Origin: Ferroacidibacillus organovorans
GTDB taxonomy: Bacteria > Bacillota > Bacilli > Alicyclobacillales > SLC66
Direction: 5' to 3'
Assembly (NCBI RefSeq): GCF_001642725.1
Contig: NZ_LSUQ01000018.1
Coordinates: 1-49,097 of the forward strand
Length of the DNA: 49,097 bases
In this document: positions 38,410 to 43,916 of the stretch, piece after piece
Position numbering within the stretch: position 1 is the first letter of the stretch
Layout: each line of letters starts with the position of its first letter
Notes under the pieces: generated by a model
Seen by the model: the letters and a program-made list of their open reading frames with translations, nothing else
Database searches by the model: none
What the model was told of the DNA's origin: nothing
Translations under genes and position numbers: made by a program

Positions 38410-39378
38410 TTATACAAACACAAGGTTTGGCTTCTTCGACAAGTCGTGACGCGTTTCAATAAAGCGCACGGTCCCACTACTCGCTCTCATCACCAGGGAG
38501 TGCGTAGTCGCAATGGAACCGCCAAGAAAACGCACACCGCGCAATAGTTCGCCTTCCGTGACACCAGTGGCTGCGAAGATCGCGTCATCCCCGCGGATGA
38601 GATCCTCCATCCTAAGAACTTGTGCAGGATCAGAAATGCCCATGCGAATGCAGCGTTCGCGTTCCGTATCATCCGCCGGAAGCAATCGCCCCTGCAACTC
38701 ACCGCCAAGACACTTGAGCGCGGCTGCAGCCAAAACGCCTTCTGGCGCGCCGCCTGATCCGAACATGATGTCCACGCCCGTCTCTGCAAACGCGGTATTG
38801 AGCGCCGCCGCGACATCGCCATCCGTGATGAGCTTGATGCGCGCACCCGTTTTTCGGATGCGATCGATGAGGGTTTGATGACGCGGGCGATCAAGCAAAA
38901 TCGCTACGACATCCTCAATCGCCTTTCCTTTCGCACGCGCCACCGCGTGTAAATTGTCTTCGACTTCTGCCTCCAAAGCGACCAGTCCGCGCGCCTCTGG
39001 ACCGACCGCCAACTTTTCCATGTACATGTCAGGCGCGTGCAGCAGCGTACCTGCCGGAGCCACGGCGATCACGGCCATGGCATTCCACAGACCCTTCGCA
39101 ACGATATTCGTACCTTCGAGCGGGTCAACCGCCACGTCAACCTGATCCTTTCCGCGTCCCAAGCGTTCCCCGATGTAGAGCATGGGCGCCTCGTCCATCT
39201 CCCCTTCGCCGATCACGACTGTACCCTCGATATCAATCGTGTCAAAAACAGCCCGCATCGCAGTTGTGGCCGCCTGATCAGCCTCATTCTTCTTACCTGT
39301 TCCCATCCAACGGGCGGCAGCAAGGGCTGCCGCTTCCGTGACGCGCGCAAATTCAATGGCGAGTTCGCGATCCATCAA
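38410..39378 (-). CDS. glpX: fructose-1,6-bisphosphatase class II
   Basis: 322 residues; gluconeogenic removal of the C1 phosphate. Signatures: [50 protein letters not shown] (metal site) and [22 protein letters not shown]. The start is ATG 39375 or the TTG immediately before it. Lies between dapL and rho. Confidence 0.96.
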
Positions 39379-39413: not shown

Positions 39414-40649
39414 TTAAAATTCAAACGATACGTCCGAGAGTCTGCGCTTGATTTCCGCGATGACCTCACGCTCAGCCACTTGGTCATCGGCTTCAAACGT
39501 CACACTGAATCGCACAAACGCACCTGCGTCGTCCCACGGCACCGTTGAGATCTGTTTTTCCGTAATCAGCCATTCGGAAAACGCCTCCGCCGAGTCAAAA
39601 CGTACACCTCCGCGAATCCCGCGCGGCGCCGCCGCATAGAGAAAGAAAGATCCTTTCGGTTTTTCCACGCGAAACCCGACTGAGCGCAACGCGTCGACGA
39701 GCATGCTGTGGCGGCGGGAGTATTTCTCCGCGATGTCAGTCGTGATCGACGGATTTTCAAGGCCGACCATCGCCGCTTTTTGTATGGCGATAAACTGCCC
39801 GGAGTCGTAATTGTCCTTCACGGTCGCGAGCCCTTTGACCGCCAATTCCTGTCCCGCCACAAACGCGATGCGCCAGCCTGTCATGTTGAACGCTTTCGAG
39901 AGCGAGAACAGCTCGATCCCGACGTCTTTTGCTCCGGGAATCGAGAGAAATGAGAGCGGTTTTACACCGTCAAACGTGAGGCTTGCATAGGCCGCATCGT
40001 GCACAATCAGGATTTCGTGACGTTTGGCGAACGCGACCGCTTTTTCGAAAAATTCAGGTGTCGCTGAAGCGCCCGTTGGGTTGTTAGGATAGTTCAAATA
40101 GAGCAGTTTCGCTTTTTTGCATACCTCTTCCGGAATGGAGTCAAGGTCCGGGAGAAAATGATTTTCCTCGTGAATCGGCAGCGTGTACACTTCACCGCCG
40201 AGAAAACGCGTATGCGTTCCTAAGACCGGGTAATTCGGGATGGGCATCAGCGCGATGTCACCTGGATTAATGAATGCGAGCGGGATCATGGCGAGTGCCG
40301 GCTTCGATCCAATCGTGTGATTGATCTCCCGCTCCGGATCAACTTCAACCCCATAAACCTGCTGCAAATAGCGCGCCGCTGCCACCTTAAACTCAGGAAT
40401 ACCGTTATCCGCATAAAAACGATTTTCCTTTTTTCTCGCCTCGACAGCGAGTCGGTCGACAATCCAGTCATGCGCCCGCTCATCCGGTTCACCAACGCCC
40501 ATATCAATCATCGGCACATCTGGATGCGCCTTTTTCGCAGCCGCTTTCGCGCGTTTGATTTTCTCGAATTTATAAATCACTGTGTCTTTGCCAAAGTTTG
40601 CACCACCAATGCGGTCAGCAAACATTTTCTGAATAAAACTCTCTGACAA
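39414..40649 (-). CDS. dapL: LL-diaminopimelate aminotransferase-like PLP enzyme
   Basis: 411 residues, fold-type I aminotransferase. The PLP lysine is Lys252 in SLSKAFNMTGWR, with LYLNYPNNPTGA (about 183-194), IDMGVGEPDE and the C-terminal Arg in VRFSVTFE. The N-terminal FADRIGGANFGKDTVIYKFEKIKRA resembles DapL, which makes LL-DAP directly from tetrahydrodipicolinate for lysine and peptidoglycan. The exact substrate cannot be proven from sequence alone. The start is TTG at 40649 with AGGGGTGAG upstream. It occupies the slot of B. subtilis murAB. Confidence 0.82.
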   Translation of the reverse strand: MSESFIQKMFADRIGGANFGKDTVIYKFEKIKRAKAAAKKAHPDVPMIDMGVGEPDERAHDWIVDRLAVEARKKENRFYADNGIPEFKVAAARYLQQVYGVEVDPEREINHTIGSKPALAMIPLAFINPGDIALMPIPNYPVLGTHTRFLGGEVYTLPIHEENHFLPDLDSIPEEVCKKAKLLYLNYPNNPTGASATPEFFEKAVAFAKRHEILIVHDAAYASLTFDGVKPLSFLSIPGAKDVGIELFSLSKAFNMTGWRIAFVAGQELAVKGLATVKDNYDSGQFIAIQKAAMVGLENPSITTDIAEKYSRRHSMLVDALRSVGFRVEKPKGSFFLYAAAPRGIRGGVRFDSAEAFSEWLITEKQISTVPWDDAGAFVRFSVTFEADDQVAEREVIAEIKRRLSDVSFEF

Positions 40650-40697: not shown

Positions 40698-41345
40698 TCA
40701 GTCACTTTTCCAGTGCGTCAGAATGCGCCGCATCCCCGCTTCCGTCACGGGGTGATCCATACTATGCAAAAGCGGTAGAAATGGGAGGATCAAACCGTCT
40801 GCCCCTGCTTCGCTGGCTTGAAGCGTCGACATGGAATCGTGCATTCCTTCGAGGTAAATGCGGGGAAAACCTTCTCGTTGAACGGAGCGCAACGCGCGAA
40901 GAAAGCGAAATGGATCCATGCCTACGTCCGCAAACCTTGCGCCATCGACACAGAGTGCGCTGCACCCCGCGCGCGCTGCGGCGATTCCTTGCGCAACATT
41001 GGCGATGTGCAGCGCAGCTACACCACAGTTGAGCACCCCGTCCAGACTCTGCATGTGGCGCGCAGCGCGGCATAGCTCGATGGTGAACGACCCCGCGCCG
41101 ATCATTTTTGCATCCGTATCGACGACGTGCAGTTCTAATTCCTTGATCATCCCATCTACGTCAAGCGCATCCAGTTCGATCATGATGCGCGAGAATCCAA
41201 GCGCAGCGACTGCGCGCACCCGTTCCTGATACGCACGCGCAGCCATCTCCTTGCGCGGAACCCAAACGGAATCGATAAATCCAAACGCAGCGGCACAGCG
41301 CAATTCTTCGAGATCCGCTGACTGAAGAATAAGTTGCACAGTCAC
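40698..41345 (-). CDS. degenerate transaldolase-family protein
   Basis: 215 residues, the size of the short Tal/Fsa-type transaldolase, at the exact tal position (between fbaA and glpX). By alignment from memory with B. subtilis Tal, the fold residues agree (AARAG, the tail HPVTEAGMRRILTHWKSD) but several active-site residues are replaced: the N-terminal Asp is Gln8, the TTNPS loop is WVPRK (near 28-32), and AAS is LEG. A lysine (Lys80) is near the Schiff-base position. It may be catalytically dead, or have a new ligand. The start is GTG at 41345. Confidence 0.7.
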   Translation of the reverse strand: MTVQLILQSADLEELRCAAAFGFIDSVWVPRKEMAARAYQERVRAVAALGFSRIMIELDALDVDGMIKELELHVVDTDAKMIGAGSFTIELCRAARHMQSLDGVLNCGVAALHIANVAQGIAAARAGCSALCVDGARFADVGMDPFRFLRALRSVQREGFPRIYLEGMHDSMSTLQASEAGADGLILPFLPLLHSMDHPVTEAGMRRILTHWKSD

Positions 41346-41396: not shown

Positions 41397-42251
41397 TTAC
41401 GCGCGGTTTGCACTACCAAACAGACGAATTTTGGTCCGCACGGCGTCTTTAATCGCTTCGCGCGCAGGTCCGAGGTATTTCCGAGGATCGTACACATTTT
41501 TATCCTTCTCAAAAATCGCGCGGATCGCATCTGTAAACGCCGACTGATTCTCTGTGTTTACATTAATTTTGCTGACGCCAAGACCGATCGCGCGAAGAAT
41601 GTCTTCATCCGGAATGCCCGTGCCCCCGTGTAACACAAGCGGAACGCCCGTCACATCGCGAACATCCTTCAGCCGATCAAACGCCAACTCCGGCTTCCCC
41701 TTATAATGCCCATGTGCTGAACCAATCGCTGGGGCAAACGCGTCAACGCCCGTCTTTTTTACGAACTCTTCCGCTTCATCCACACGCACCAGCGCCGCTT
41801 CGCGCGCGTCCACCGTAAGGTCATCTTCGACGCCGCCGATGCGCCCGAGTTCCGCCTCAACGTGAACTCCTACCGCGTGACTTGCCTCGACCACCTTTTG
41901 CGTCAATGCAAGATTCTCTTCAAATGGATGGTGTGAACCATCAATCATCACAGATGTGAATCCATTTCGTATGCATTTCATCACCATATCAAAACTGCTG
42001 CCGTGATCGAGGTGGAGGATAACCGGAACCTTCGATTTCTCGGCAGCAGTTCGAACGATAGCAACCATATAGTCAAGACCCATATATTTAATCGCGCCCT
42101 CTGACGCGCCAAGAATCACCGGAGCACCTTCTTCATTGGCCACCTCAATGATCGCCTGCGTAAACTCCAGATTGTTGATATTAAACTGCCCTACGGCATA
42201 TCCGTTTTTCAGGCCGTCATTCAGCACCTGTTTAAATGAACCAAATGGCAT
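41397..42251 (-). CDS. fbaA: class II fructose-bisphosphate aldolase
   Basis: 284 residues; zinc enzyme of glycolysis and gluconeogenesis. HLDHGSSFDMVMKCIRNGFTSVMIDGSHHPFEEN carries the zinc histidines and catalytic Asp, with GSAHGHYKGKPEL, LVLHGGTGIPDEDI and KINVNTENQ following. Complete, typical length. It is 51 nt upstream of the transaldolase-like gene. Confidence 0.96.
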   Translation of the reverse strand: MPFGSFKQVLNDGLKNGYAVGQFNINNLEFTQAIIEVANEEGAPVILGASEGAIKYMGLDYMVAIVRTAAEKSKVPVILHLDHGSSFDMVMKCIRNGFTSVMIDGSHHPFEENLALTQKVVEASHAVGVHVEAELGRIGGVEDDLTVDAREAALVRVDEAEEFVKKTGVDAFAPAIGSAHGHYKGKPELAFDRLKDVRDVTGVPLVLHGGTGIPDEDILRAIGLGVSKINVNTENQSAFTDAIRAIFEKDKNVYDPRKYLGPAREAIKDAVRTKIRLFGSANRA

Positions 42252-42292: not shown

Positions 42293-43114
42293 TCACGAAA
42301 GTCGCGCGATCCCAAGAATCGAGCGCGCTTCATCGGCTGATGCAACCGCTCGTCCCATCTCTTCGGCCATTCTCTTCACGCGTGCGACCAGTTCTGCATT
42401 GCCTGTCGCCAAACGCCCCTTGCTGTAGTAAATGTTGTCTTCAAGCCCCACGCGAACGTGGCCGCCCATCGCAAGGCCGATCATCGCCATGGGGAGTTGT
42501 GCGCGCCCGATGCCCGCCACAGACCACGAGCAACCCTGCGGAAGCGCGTCGACCAAGAAGGTGAGATTTCTCGCTGTCGCGGAAAGTGCGCCAGGCACAC
42601 CGAGCACAAAATCAAAGTGTAGCGGCAGTGAAAAGACACCCTGCCGCACCAGATACATCGCATTCTCGATCATGGCGACATCGAACACTTCAATTTCAGG
42701 CGTGATGTGGTGCGCGGCCATTCGCTTGGCAAACGAGAGGATGTCCCCCATACGATTGACAAAGACATCGTCGCCAAAATTAACCGTCCCCGTCGTTAGT
42801 GTGGCCATTTCCGGACGAAGCGCCAATACGGCGGAGCGCGATTCCGCCGTCATGCCAACTGCGCCACCTGTCGATACCTGAACGATGACATCCGTACGCT
42901 CCCGAATCTCCCTGATGATCTCGCGGTACACGTCAGGGTCCTGCGTGGCCGTGCCGCGCGCGTCCCTCGCATGGATGTGAACCAACGCCGCGCCCGCAGC
43001 GCGCGCGCGCGCCGCTTCCTCTGCGATCTCAACGGGTGTAAGCGGAAGCGCTGGCGTTTGTTCACGCGTGACTTCTGCGCCATTGAGGGCTGAAGTGATG
43101 ATCAACGGCTCCAT
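42293..43114 (-). CDS. kce: 3-keto-5-aminohexanoate cleavage enzyme (BKACE family)
   Basis: 273 residues, DUF849/BKACE family. In the lysine fermentation pathway it splits 3-keto-5-aminohexanoate with acetyl-CoA into acetoacetate and 3-aminobutyryl-CoA. The zinc and catalytic residues match the characterised enzyme: His46 and His48 in VHIHARD, STGG at 81-84, and Arg221, Glu225 and Asp226 in VRVGLEDN. BKACE relatives use many beta-keto acids, so the substrate is inferred from the adjacent ammonia-lyase. Located between that gene and fbaA. Confidence 0.87.
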   Translation of the reverse strand: MEPLIITSALNGAEVTREQTPALPLTPVEIAEEAARARAAGAALVHIHARDARGTATQDPDVYREIIREIRERTDVIVQVSTGGAVGMTAESRSAVLALRPEMATLTTGTVNFGDDVFVNRMGDILSFAKRMAAHHITPEIEVFDVAMIENAMYLVRQGVFSLPLHFDFVLGVPGALSATARNLTFLVDALPQGCSWSVAGIGRAQLPMAMIGLAMGGHVRVGLEDNIYYSKGRLATGNAELVARVKRMAEEMGRAVASADEARSILGIARLS

Positions 43115-43138
43115 GTCACACTCCCTTTCTGAAATTGC

Positions 43139-43531
43139 TCAACCGTCCTCACGCTTGTTCAGGCGTTGTTTTTCAAGCGGAACCACACATGTACCGCTCG
43201 CCTCCGCCACAAGCTGAGGCGGCGCCACAACACACGCCGCAGACGGTTGGGCTGGATCGCCTAGCGAAGTGACCACCTTATGAACTTGAAACTCCATGCG
43301 CCGCGAAGTGCGCCCACTATGTACAATTCGACCTGTCGCCTCCACGTAATCCCCTCCGTAAACAGGCGCCAGAAACGTCACGCGATCATAAGCGCAAAAT
43401 AGCCCCTCATCCCCATCGTGGCGGATCAAGAGCTCTGTGGCGACATCCCCAAACAGTTGCATCATGCGCGCGCCATCGACGAGATTGCCCGCGTAATGCG
43501 CATCTGCAGAAGACAGCCGCACGCGCAACAT
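43139..43531 (-). CDS. kal: 3-aminobutyryl-CoA ammonia-lyase (hotdog fold)
   Basis: 130 residues with the hotdog-fold signature of Kal: [54 protein letters not shown]. In lysine fermentation it converts 3-aminobutyryl-CoA to crotonyl-CoA and ammonia, the step right after Kce. The frame is open to 43603, but the first 24 residues overlap spo0F and are not family-like; I choose ATG 43531 (GTG 43534 is also possible). It starts 7 nt after the spo0F stop, within reach of terminating ribosomes. Confidence 0.83.
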
Positions 43532-43538
43532 CACAGTT

Positions 43539-43916
43539 TCATCCAACACGCGGCACAACCCCCACCTGCGACGCGATAAAGCGGCGCAATTCATCAATGT
43601 CAAACGGCTTTGTAAAATGACCTACTGCACCGTGTGCGATCGCTTCTTTGACAAACCCCAACTCACCGTACGCTGTCATCATCGCGACCTTCACGTGGGG
43701 CTGCACTTGGCGCAACCCCTTTAAGATTTCAAGACCATCCATCCCCGGAATTTTCATATCAAGAAGAACAAAATCAAATGATTTCTTTTGAAGCTGATCC
43801 AATGCTTCTTTGCCGTTTGCGGCAAGTTCCACATGATATCCTTCACGCTCTAAAACCTCTTGCAAAAGAATACGAATGCCAAACTGGTCATCTACGACAA
43901 GAACACGACGTGCCAA
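43539..43916 (-). CDS. spo0F: sporulation phosphorelay response regulator Spo0F
   Basis: 125-residue stand-alone receiver with no output domain. Acidic pocket Asp9/Asp10 (VVDDQFG), phosphoacceptor Asp53 ([11 protein letters not shown]), Thr81 (MMTAYG) and Lys103 (FTKPFD) are all present. It passes phosphate from Kin kinases to Spo0B. Length and context (fbaA side and pyrG side) support Spo0F. The start is TTG at 43916 with GGGAGGG 8 nt upstream. Confidence 0.94.

Follow-up and report, generated by a model that had tools for sequence, protein, structure and literature searches.

The closest described relatives of the protein considered here are the short transaldolases of the Bacillota (3r8r; TIGR00875/TalC group), which resemble it in length, in the TIM barrel and in the C-terminal HPxTD motif. 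The protein, here called pTal, is a degenerate short-type transaldolase homologue encoded in the window (the whole stretch of 49,097 nucleotides that was analysed). In G060, a genome from outside the order, a canonical short-transaldolase gene occupies the same locus, with spo0F and fba before it and glpX after it. Unlike the Bacillota short transaldolases, pTal has the columns of the Schiff-base lysine, Asp, Asn and Thr replaced, and it scores 31.6 bits against a family cut-off of 245.95. Its fold is shared with E. coli fructose-6-phosphate aldolase as well (1l6w and mutants; Z 22.9 for 1l6w), from which it differs in lacking the Schiff-base lysine and Asp columns and to which it is 15% identical.

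Defective transaldolases and retained inactive enzymes have been described elsewhere. The chromosomal transaldolase of Bacillus methanolicus MGA3 is reported to be defective, being N-terminally truncated with loss of the catalytic Asp, while that of strain PB1 is intact (PMC7092467). A chromosomal transaldolase gene without the catalytic Asp is thus common to both cases, but the MGA3 truncation concerns one strain, whereas pTal is full-length and its site is lost in every carrier of the family. In the Dis3/RNase II family, pseudonucleases are described as having evolved repeatedly and as having an RNA-binding function (PMC8097288). They resemble pTal in that inactive relatives of an enzyme have been retained, but fold and organisms differ and the RNA-binding function is not matched here. 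In the titles and abstract openings of the open-access literature, no report of a transaldolase pseudoenzyme of this kind was found, and those dealing with transaldolase in Alicyclobacillus held nothing on a degenerate form.

The pTal gene, its neighbours and its predicted fold

The gene lies on the reverse strand at 40698..41345 and encodes 215 aa when read from the GTG at 41345. The true start is more likely the second GTG, at 41339 (213 aa), because relatives align from there and the upstream sequence also favours it. Residue numbers are counted from the first GTG (numbering in the structural model is lower by 2), and names such as Lys86 and Asp6 refer to canonical columns of the short transaldolase alignment.

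The original prediction had placed the gene between fbaA and glpX. The upstream part of this description stands, with fba (class II fructose-bisphosphate aldolase) at 41397..42251 on the reverse strand, but on its downstream side the gene adjoins one for an LL-diaminopimelate aminotransferase (39414..40649, reverse strand; NF004937, above cut-off), and glpX (class II fructose-bisphosphatase; 38410..39378, reverse strand) follows beyond it. Between spo0F and fba, the region 42293-43603 holds a gene for a 3-keto-5-aminohexanoate cleavage enzyme (NF052387, above cut-off) and a hotdog-like ORF labelled by eye. The cleavage enzyme is an unexpected guest within this central-carbon cluster, and a counterpart was seen at 13/17 family loci and at 5/16 of the others examined. 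As listed, the hotdog-like ORF (43139-43603) and the spo0F-like ORF (43539-43916) overlap by 65 bases, their start codons being unsure.

The proposed short-transaldolase length and fold were confirmed, the fold in a predicted model. TIGR00875 (NCBIfam) aligns with nearly the full length of the window protein at 1e-7, below its cut-off as given above, and no match to PF00923 or any other Pfam family appeared at E up to 1. Among four other clade members scanned, two reached 22.1 and 19.5 of 27 bits and two had no match. A phmmer search against the PDB found the T. maritima transaldolase 1vpx (E 1e-12). The AlphaFold2 model, a predicted single chain computed from an alignment of 37 locus proteins with canonical relatives included, has a pLDDT of 92.4 and a pTM of 0.86. 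The 50 Foldseek matches listed for it consist of transaldolases, fructose-6-phosphate aldolases and one entry, 9v4b, whose title carries no molecule name. By VIA-align the model superposes on the B. subtilis transaldolase 3r8r with Z 25.9 and rmsd 1.8 over 200 residues, tied with the T. maritima and T. acidophilum transaldolases (Z 25.1). The window protein is accordingly modelled as a full-length TIM barrel of the short transaldolase family.

Loss of the catalytic columns and descent at the locus

Active-site columns were compared in an alignment of 64 rows, made up of the locus proteins of 16 genomes of the window's family (f1, 18 genomes), of 40 genomes of the sister family (f2, 41 genomes; G030 absent) and of two genomes outside the order, together with five second copies and one fragment; the order comprises 59 genomes in total. 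In the window protein, alignment places Gln8 (codon 41322..41324) at the column of the catalytic Asp6 on strand 1 of the barrel, WVPRK (28-32; 41250..41264) at that of TTNPS, with the TNP of strand 2, Ala84 (codon 41094..41096) at that of the Schiff-base lysine on strand 4 and LEG (165-167; 40845..40853) at that of AAS, which in active relatives belongs to the phosphate site; all four are encoded on the reverse strand. The three substitutions first noticed by hand (Gln8, WVPRK and LEG) therefore sit at the expected columns. HPVTE (198-202; 40740..40754, reverse strand) corresponds to the HPxTD motif with which the C-terminal helix begins, and its His and Pro are invariant in 16/16 family sequences.

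The same substitutions had been suggested as something to look for in relatives, and the survey shows that loss of the catalytic columns, by varying substitutions, is general to the family. The columns of Asp6, Thr26, Asn28, Lys86, Asn108 and Thr110 are each kept in 0/16 f1 rows. The other 48 rows keep Asp6 in 48/48, Asn28 in 48/48 and Lys86 in 45/48; G031 is counted with Asp6 after reading from its proper start, the alignment table showing a gap there, and the three rows without the lysine are G031, G034 and G042. Loss of the catalytic columns in the window's family is beyond chance. At the Schiff-base column the 16 f1 rows carry A, A, L, F, F, V, L, L, L, F, F, V, L, L, F and L. The lysine that had been thought to remain near the Schiff-base position is Lys80, which lies four residues upstream of the column and is replaced by Glu in the only further genome of the genus; an active enzyme using it as Schiff base was rejected on these grounds.

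The gene is present in 16 of the 18 f1 genomes, and open and degenerate in all 16. In one of the remaining two, G008, it has been cleanly deleted, with fba ending at 805 and the aminotransferase beginning at 832 of L122, so the gene is dispensable there (one of 17 family genomes with a readable locus). In the other, G017, neither fba nor glpX was seen, so the locus is probably missing from this assembly, which is 60% complete. When 17 f1 loci and 16 others were compared by tblastn, spo0F was found upstream in 15/17 f1 loci (the two misses being stretches that end too early) and in 15/16 others, and the window has it too. Of the 17 f1 loci 14 have fba upstream; none of the 16 others does, apart from those of the two genomes outside the order. 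The aminotransferase follows the gene in 15/16 f1 carriers, the exception (G016) being at a contig end. In genus g2 all three genomes that carry the gene (G002, G010 and G014) have no adjoining fba. The sole fba-like gene of G002 lies on another contig in two pieces (47 and 35% identity), and fba was not found in G010 or G014, both incomplete assemblies. A strict partnership with the neighbouring fba is weakened by this genus.

The 16 f1 sequences form one clade with support 100/100, set off by a stem some 2.5 changes per column long, in a tree that carries long-branch warnings. Shared neighbours and a shared locus point to a native short transaldolase changed in place, and pTal would then be the in-place descendant of the order's own enzyme. 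A profile of the 16 clade members matched 322 of 398 genomes of the class; eight family members scored at least 237.5 bits and the other 314 matching genomes at most 152.2 bits, with no match in G008. In this 398-genome class sample, no further carrier of the fully degenerate form was found outside the family. Nine loci from named relatives all have TNP and the K-x-P-x-T lysine, and seven pattern matches on viral contigs included no relative of pTal.

Next to the dead transaldolase, several genomes also have a hydrophobic protein with the look of a multi-span membrane protein, about 203-242 aa long and unmatched in Pfam and NCBIfam in the two members scanned (L036 5012-5623, L032 3728-4366 and L039 5566-6294 on the reverse strand; L033 4680-5330 and L045 1961-2602 on the forward strand). 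It lies directly 3' of the transaldolase in eight of nine strongly matching family genomes; in the ninth (G016) it is on another contig, the transaldolase being at a contig end. In the window's genome it has no match. This protein is a candidate partner or membrane tether of pTal.

The long transaldolase and the sister family

A canonical transaldolase elsewhere in the genome, the existence of which had been raised in the original prediction, is present beside transketolase. It is a 363-aa protein, the sole PF00923 match of the window's genome, with intact active-site columns and 308.9 bits to TIGR00876, above the cut-off of 233.75. In this assembly, which is 96.8% complete, only pTal and this one long transaldolase were found and no canonical short one. 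For this reason a role for pTal as regulatory subunit of a canonical short transaldolase in the same cell was rejected for this genome. Long transaldolases occur in 15/18 f1 and 9/41 f2 genomes. In all 24 the inspected Lys, two Asn and Thr/Ser/Arg columns are intact; the Asp is seen in 23, the remaining sequence breaking off where its contig ends, and the Glu in 23, G034 having Gly. Loss of catalysis in pTal would be tolerated because a separate canonical enzyme is encoded in the same genome.

The sister family shows less extensive changes at the same locus. Altered locus transaldolases occur there only alongside a long transaldolase, in 5/9 genomes with one versus 0/30 without (Fisher p 2e-4, kinship not controlled). 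This count covers 39 of the 41 genomes, leaving out G030 and G036 (in which the gene is in two partial, chimeric-looking frames), and the label 'altered' was defined after the table had been seen. The five altered proteins comprise K to Q in G034 and G042, K to N and other changes in G031, several altered columns with Asp, Asn and Lys kept in G026, and P to H, S to R and N to A in G047. G027, G040, G044 and G057 have a long transaldolase together with a canonical locus protein. When kinship is taken into account, the link rests on three well-supported independent pairs on the tree, too few for significance; G006, G014 and G016 of the window's family (81, 65 and 91% complete), in which no long transaldolase was detected, were left out of this pair test. 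The altered label in f2 needs as few as two changes on the tree, and more origins are unsupported.

Short transaldolases that are near-canonical except for Gln in place of the Schiff-base Lys were recorded in the sister family at L101 3067-3711 and L102 2823-3473, both on the forward strand; both genomes also have a second short transaldolase (L108, L112) and a long one. In G036 (L098, L099) the short transaldolase is represented by two incomplete copies, and each of them runs in frame into unrelated sequence, which may be an assembly chimera.

Constraint and the proposed role of the retained protein

The view of this gene as a degenerate transaldolase with an open frame at this place is borne out by the alignment and the AlphaFold2 model, and dN/dS adds purifying selection. 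In four close, unsaturated pairs the dN/dS of pTal is 0.20, 0.18, 0.185 and 0.18, the synonymous and non-synonymous differences being distinct at p 2e-5 or less in each (approximate site counts). Four more distant f1 pairs gave 0.15-0.29 with dS near-saturated. In the same close pairs the neighbouring genes range from 0.00 to 0.10 ('hotdog' values of two G007 pairs were excluded as a frame artefact), two canonical short-transaldolase pairs have 0.012 and 0.007, and a K-to-Q pair has 0.10. The excess of pTal is about 1.8-fold to tenfold over its neighbours and 15- to 30-fold over the two canonical pairs, which indicates that selection on it is weak. The domain is uninterrupted by stops in all 16 f1 frames, with identity to the window protein down to 22%; a TGA reported for G009 and G016 is the ORF's own stop at the match end. 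As an enzyme homologue that lacks catalytic residues while its frame is intact and under purifying selection, pTal fits the description of a pseudoenzyme, and it is very probably dead as a transaldolase, judging from its residues.

What remains conserved gives some indication of why the gene is kept. In canonical sequences conservation is higher on the catalytic face than elsewhere in the protein (p 5e-5); in the f1 clade it is not (p 0.22), but high overall variability may blunt the difference between face and remainder there. Two stretches are still conserved in the clade, namely segment 195-207 (p 0.007) and helix 113-126 (p 0.003), and both are conserved in canonical sequences too (p 0.04 and 0.02). 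These tests used 14 of the 16 f1 sequences (two near-copies dropped), were one-sided and uncorrected, and concerned segments picked after inspection. Intact retention at the old place in most of the family, despite loss of nearly all key residues, suggests a non-catalytic job, and selection on the folded body probably keeps pTal. A new role, as originally proposed, is likely on this sequence evidence.

The explanation that we prefer, and to which we give about even weight, is a transaldolase pseudoenzyme that is specific to this lineage and retained for a non-catalytic role, probably one based on assembly. In this explanation, the separate long, mycobacterial-type transaldolase would have taken over the reaction before or during the loss in pTal, which would then have shed most of its catalytic and phosphate-binding residues. 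It would have persisted in the window's family as an intact TIM barrel, fast-evolving yet under purifying selection, acting through its folded and probably oligomeric body, for example as a scaffold or regulatory binding partner, and not by catalysis. An oligomeric body is proposed because conservation persists in helix 5 and in the C-terminal helix. The title of Thorell et al. 2002 ties inter-subunit helix swapping to assembly in the transaldolase family, and from this link we infer that an assembly-based role is favoured.

The main rival, which we consider unlikely though not by a wide distance, is a slowly decaying remnant, relaxed once the long transaldolase had arrived and held by weak or residual selection (on folding, spacing or translational coupling in the operon) with no function of its own. 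The long branches, the raised dN/dS, the clean deletion in G008 and the altered columns in the five sister-family genomes with a long transaldolase would all be expected of such a remnant. However, pure decay should leave frameshifts, and the stop-free domains at such low identity, together with dN/dS near 0.2 between close pairs, argue against it.

New chemistry on the old barrel is a further and more doubtful explanation. Several residues that could do the work have become common in f1: Arg31, which replaces the TNP proline (15/16), Tyr39 (15/16), Asp183 (15/16), Tyr197 (14/16) and Trp189 (13/16). The Glu60 column is kept in 12/16, including Glu57 of the window protein, and Glu occupies the Asp6 column in 4/16, so that some pocket acids remain. 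Asp is also found at the Phe132 column in 10/16 rows and at the Ser167 column in 8/16. A new enzyme working with Arg31, Glu57, Asp183, Trp189 and this acidic pocket is at odds with a catalytic face that is on average no more conserved than the remaining protein, with the absence of Trp189 and Tyr197 from both genomes of the window's genus, and with pocket residues that vary from genus to genus. The different aldolase of the original prediction, if of the Schiff-base kind, is disfavoured because no lysine column exceeds 8/16, and the best one (model position 151) is in a helix outside the barrel strands.

The regulatory sugar-phosphate sensor of the same prediction, or a regulatory subunit, fares worse and is very improbable. 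The fold is that of sugar-phosphate enzymes and the gene is located near fba and glpX, but genus g2 keeps it without adjoining fba, and the window's genome offers no canonical short transaldolase that was found for regulation by mixed assembly. Moreover, the columns which we take to be the phosphate side of short transaldolases are mostly lost (R135 kept in 4/16, S167 in 2/16 and R169 in 7/16), and the mean net charge over 14 active-site columns is -1.7 in the 16 f1 sequences versus +1.0 in 15 canonical ones. A still active transaldolase with relocated catalytic residues is hardly conceivable, since the Glu60 and Asp6-column acids just described are set against fully replaced TNP, Lys and Asn/Thr columns and against barrel strands in none of which the clade conserves a lysine.

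Returning to the preferred pseudoenzyme explanation, its widest form is tentative, and we regard it as possible rather than probable: once a second transaldolase had taken over the reaction, a whole family may have converted its native one to an oligomer without catalysis that serves central carbon metabolism as scaffold or regulator, with the sister family showing earlier stages. Pseudoenzymes have mostly been studied in eukaryotic signalling, and here a core enzyme of the pentose-phosphate pathway seems to have turned pseudoenzyme across a bacterial family. Caution is advised against annotating the degenerate f1 genes as tal. At the same locus the sister family has canonical forms, forms that have lost the lysine (K to Q) and forms that are partly eroded, a series in which it can be tested how an enzyme is released by redundancy and why its inactive copy is retained.
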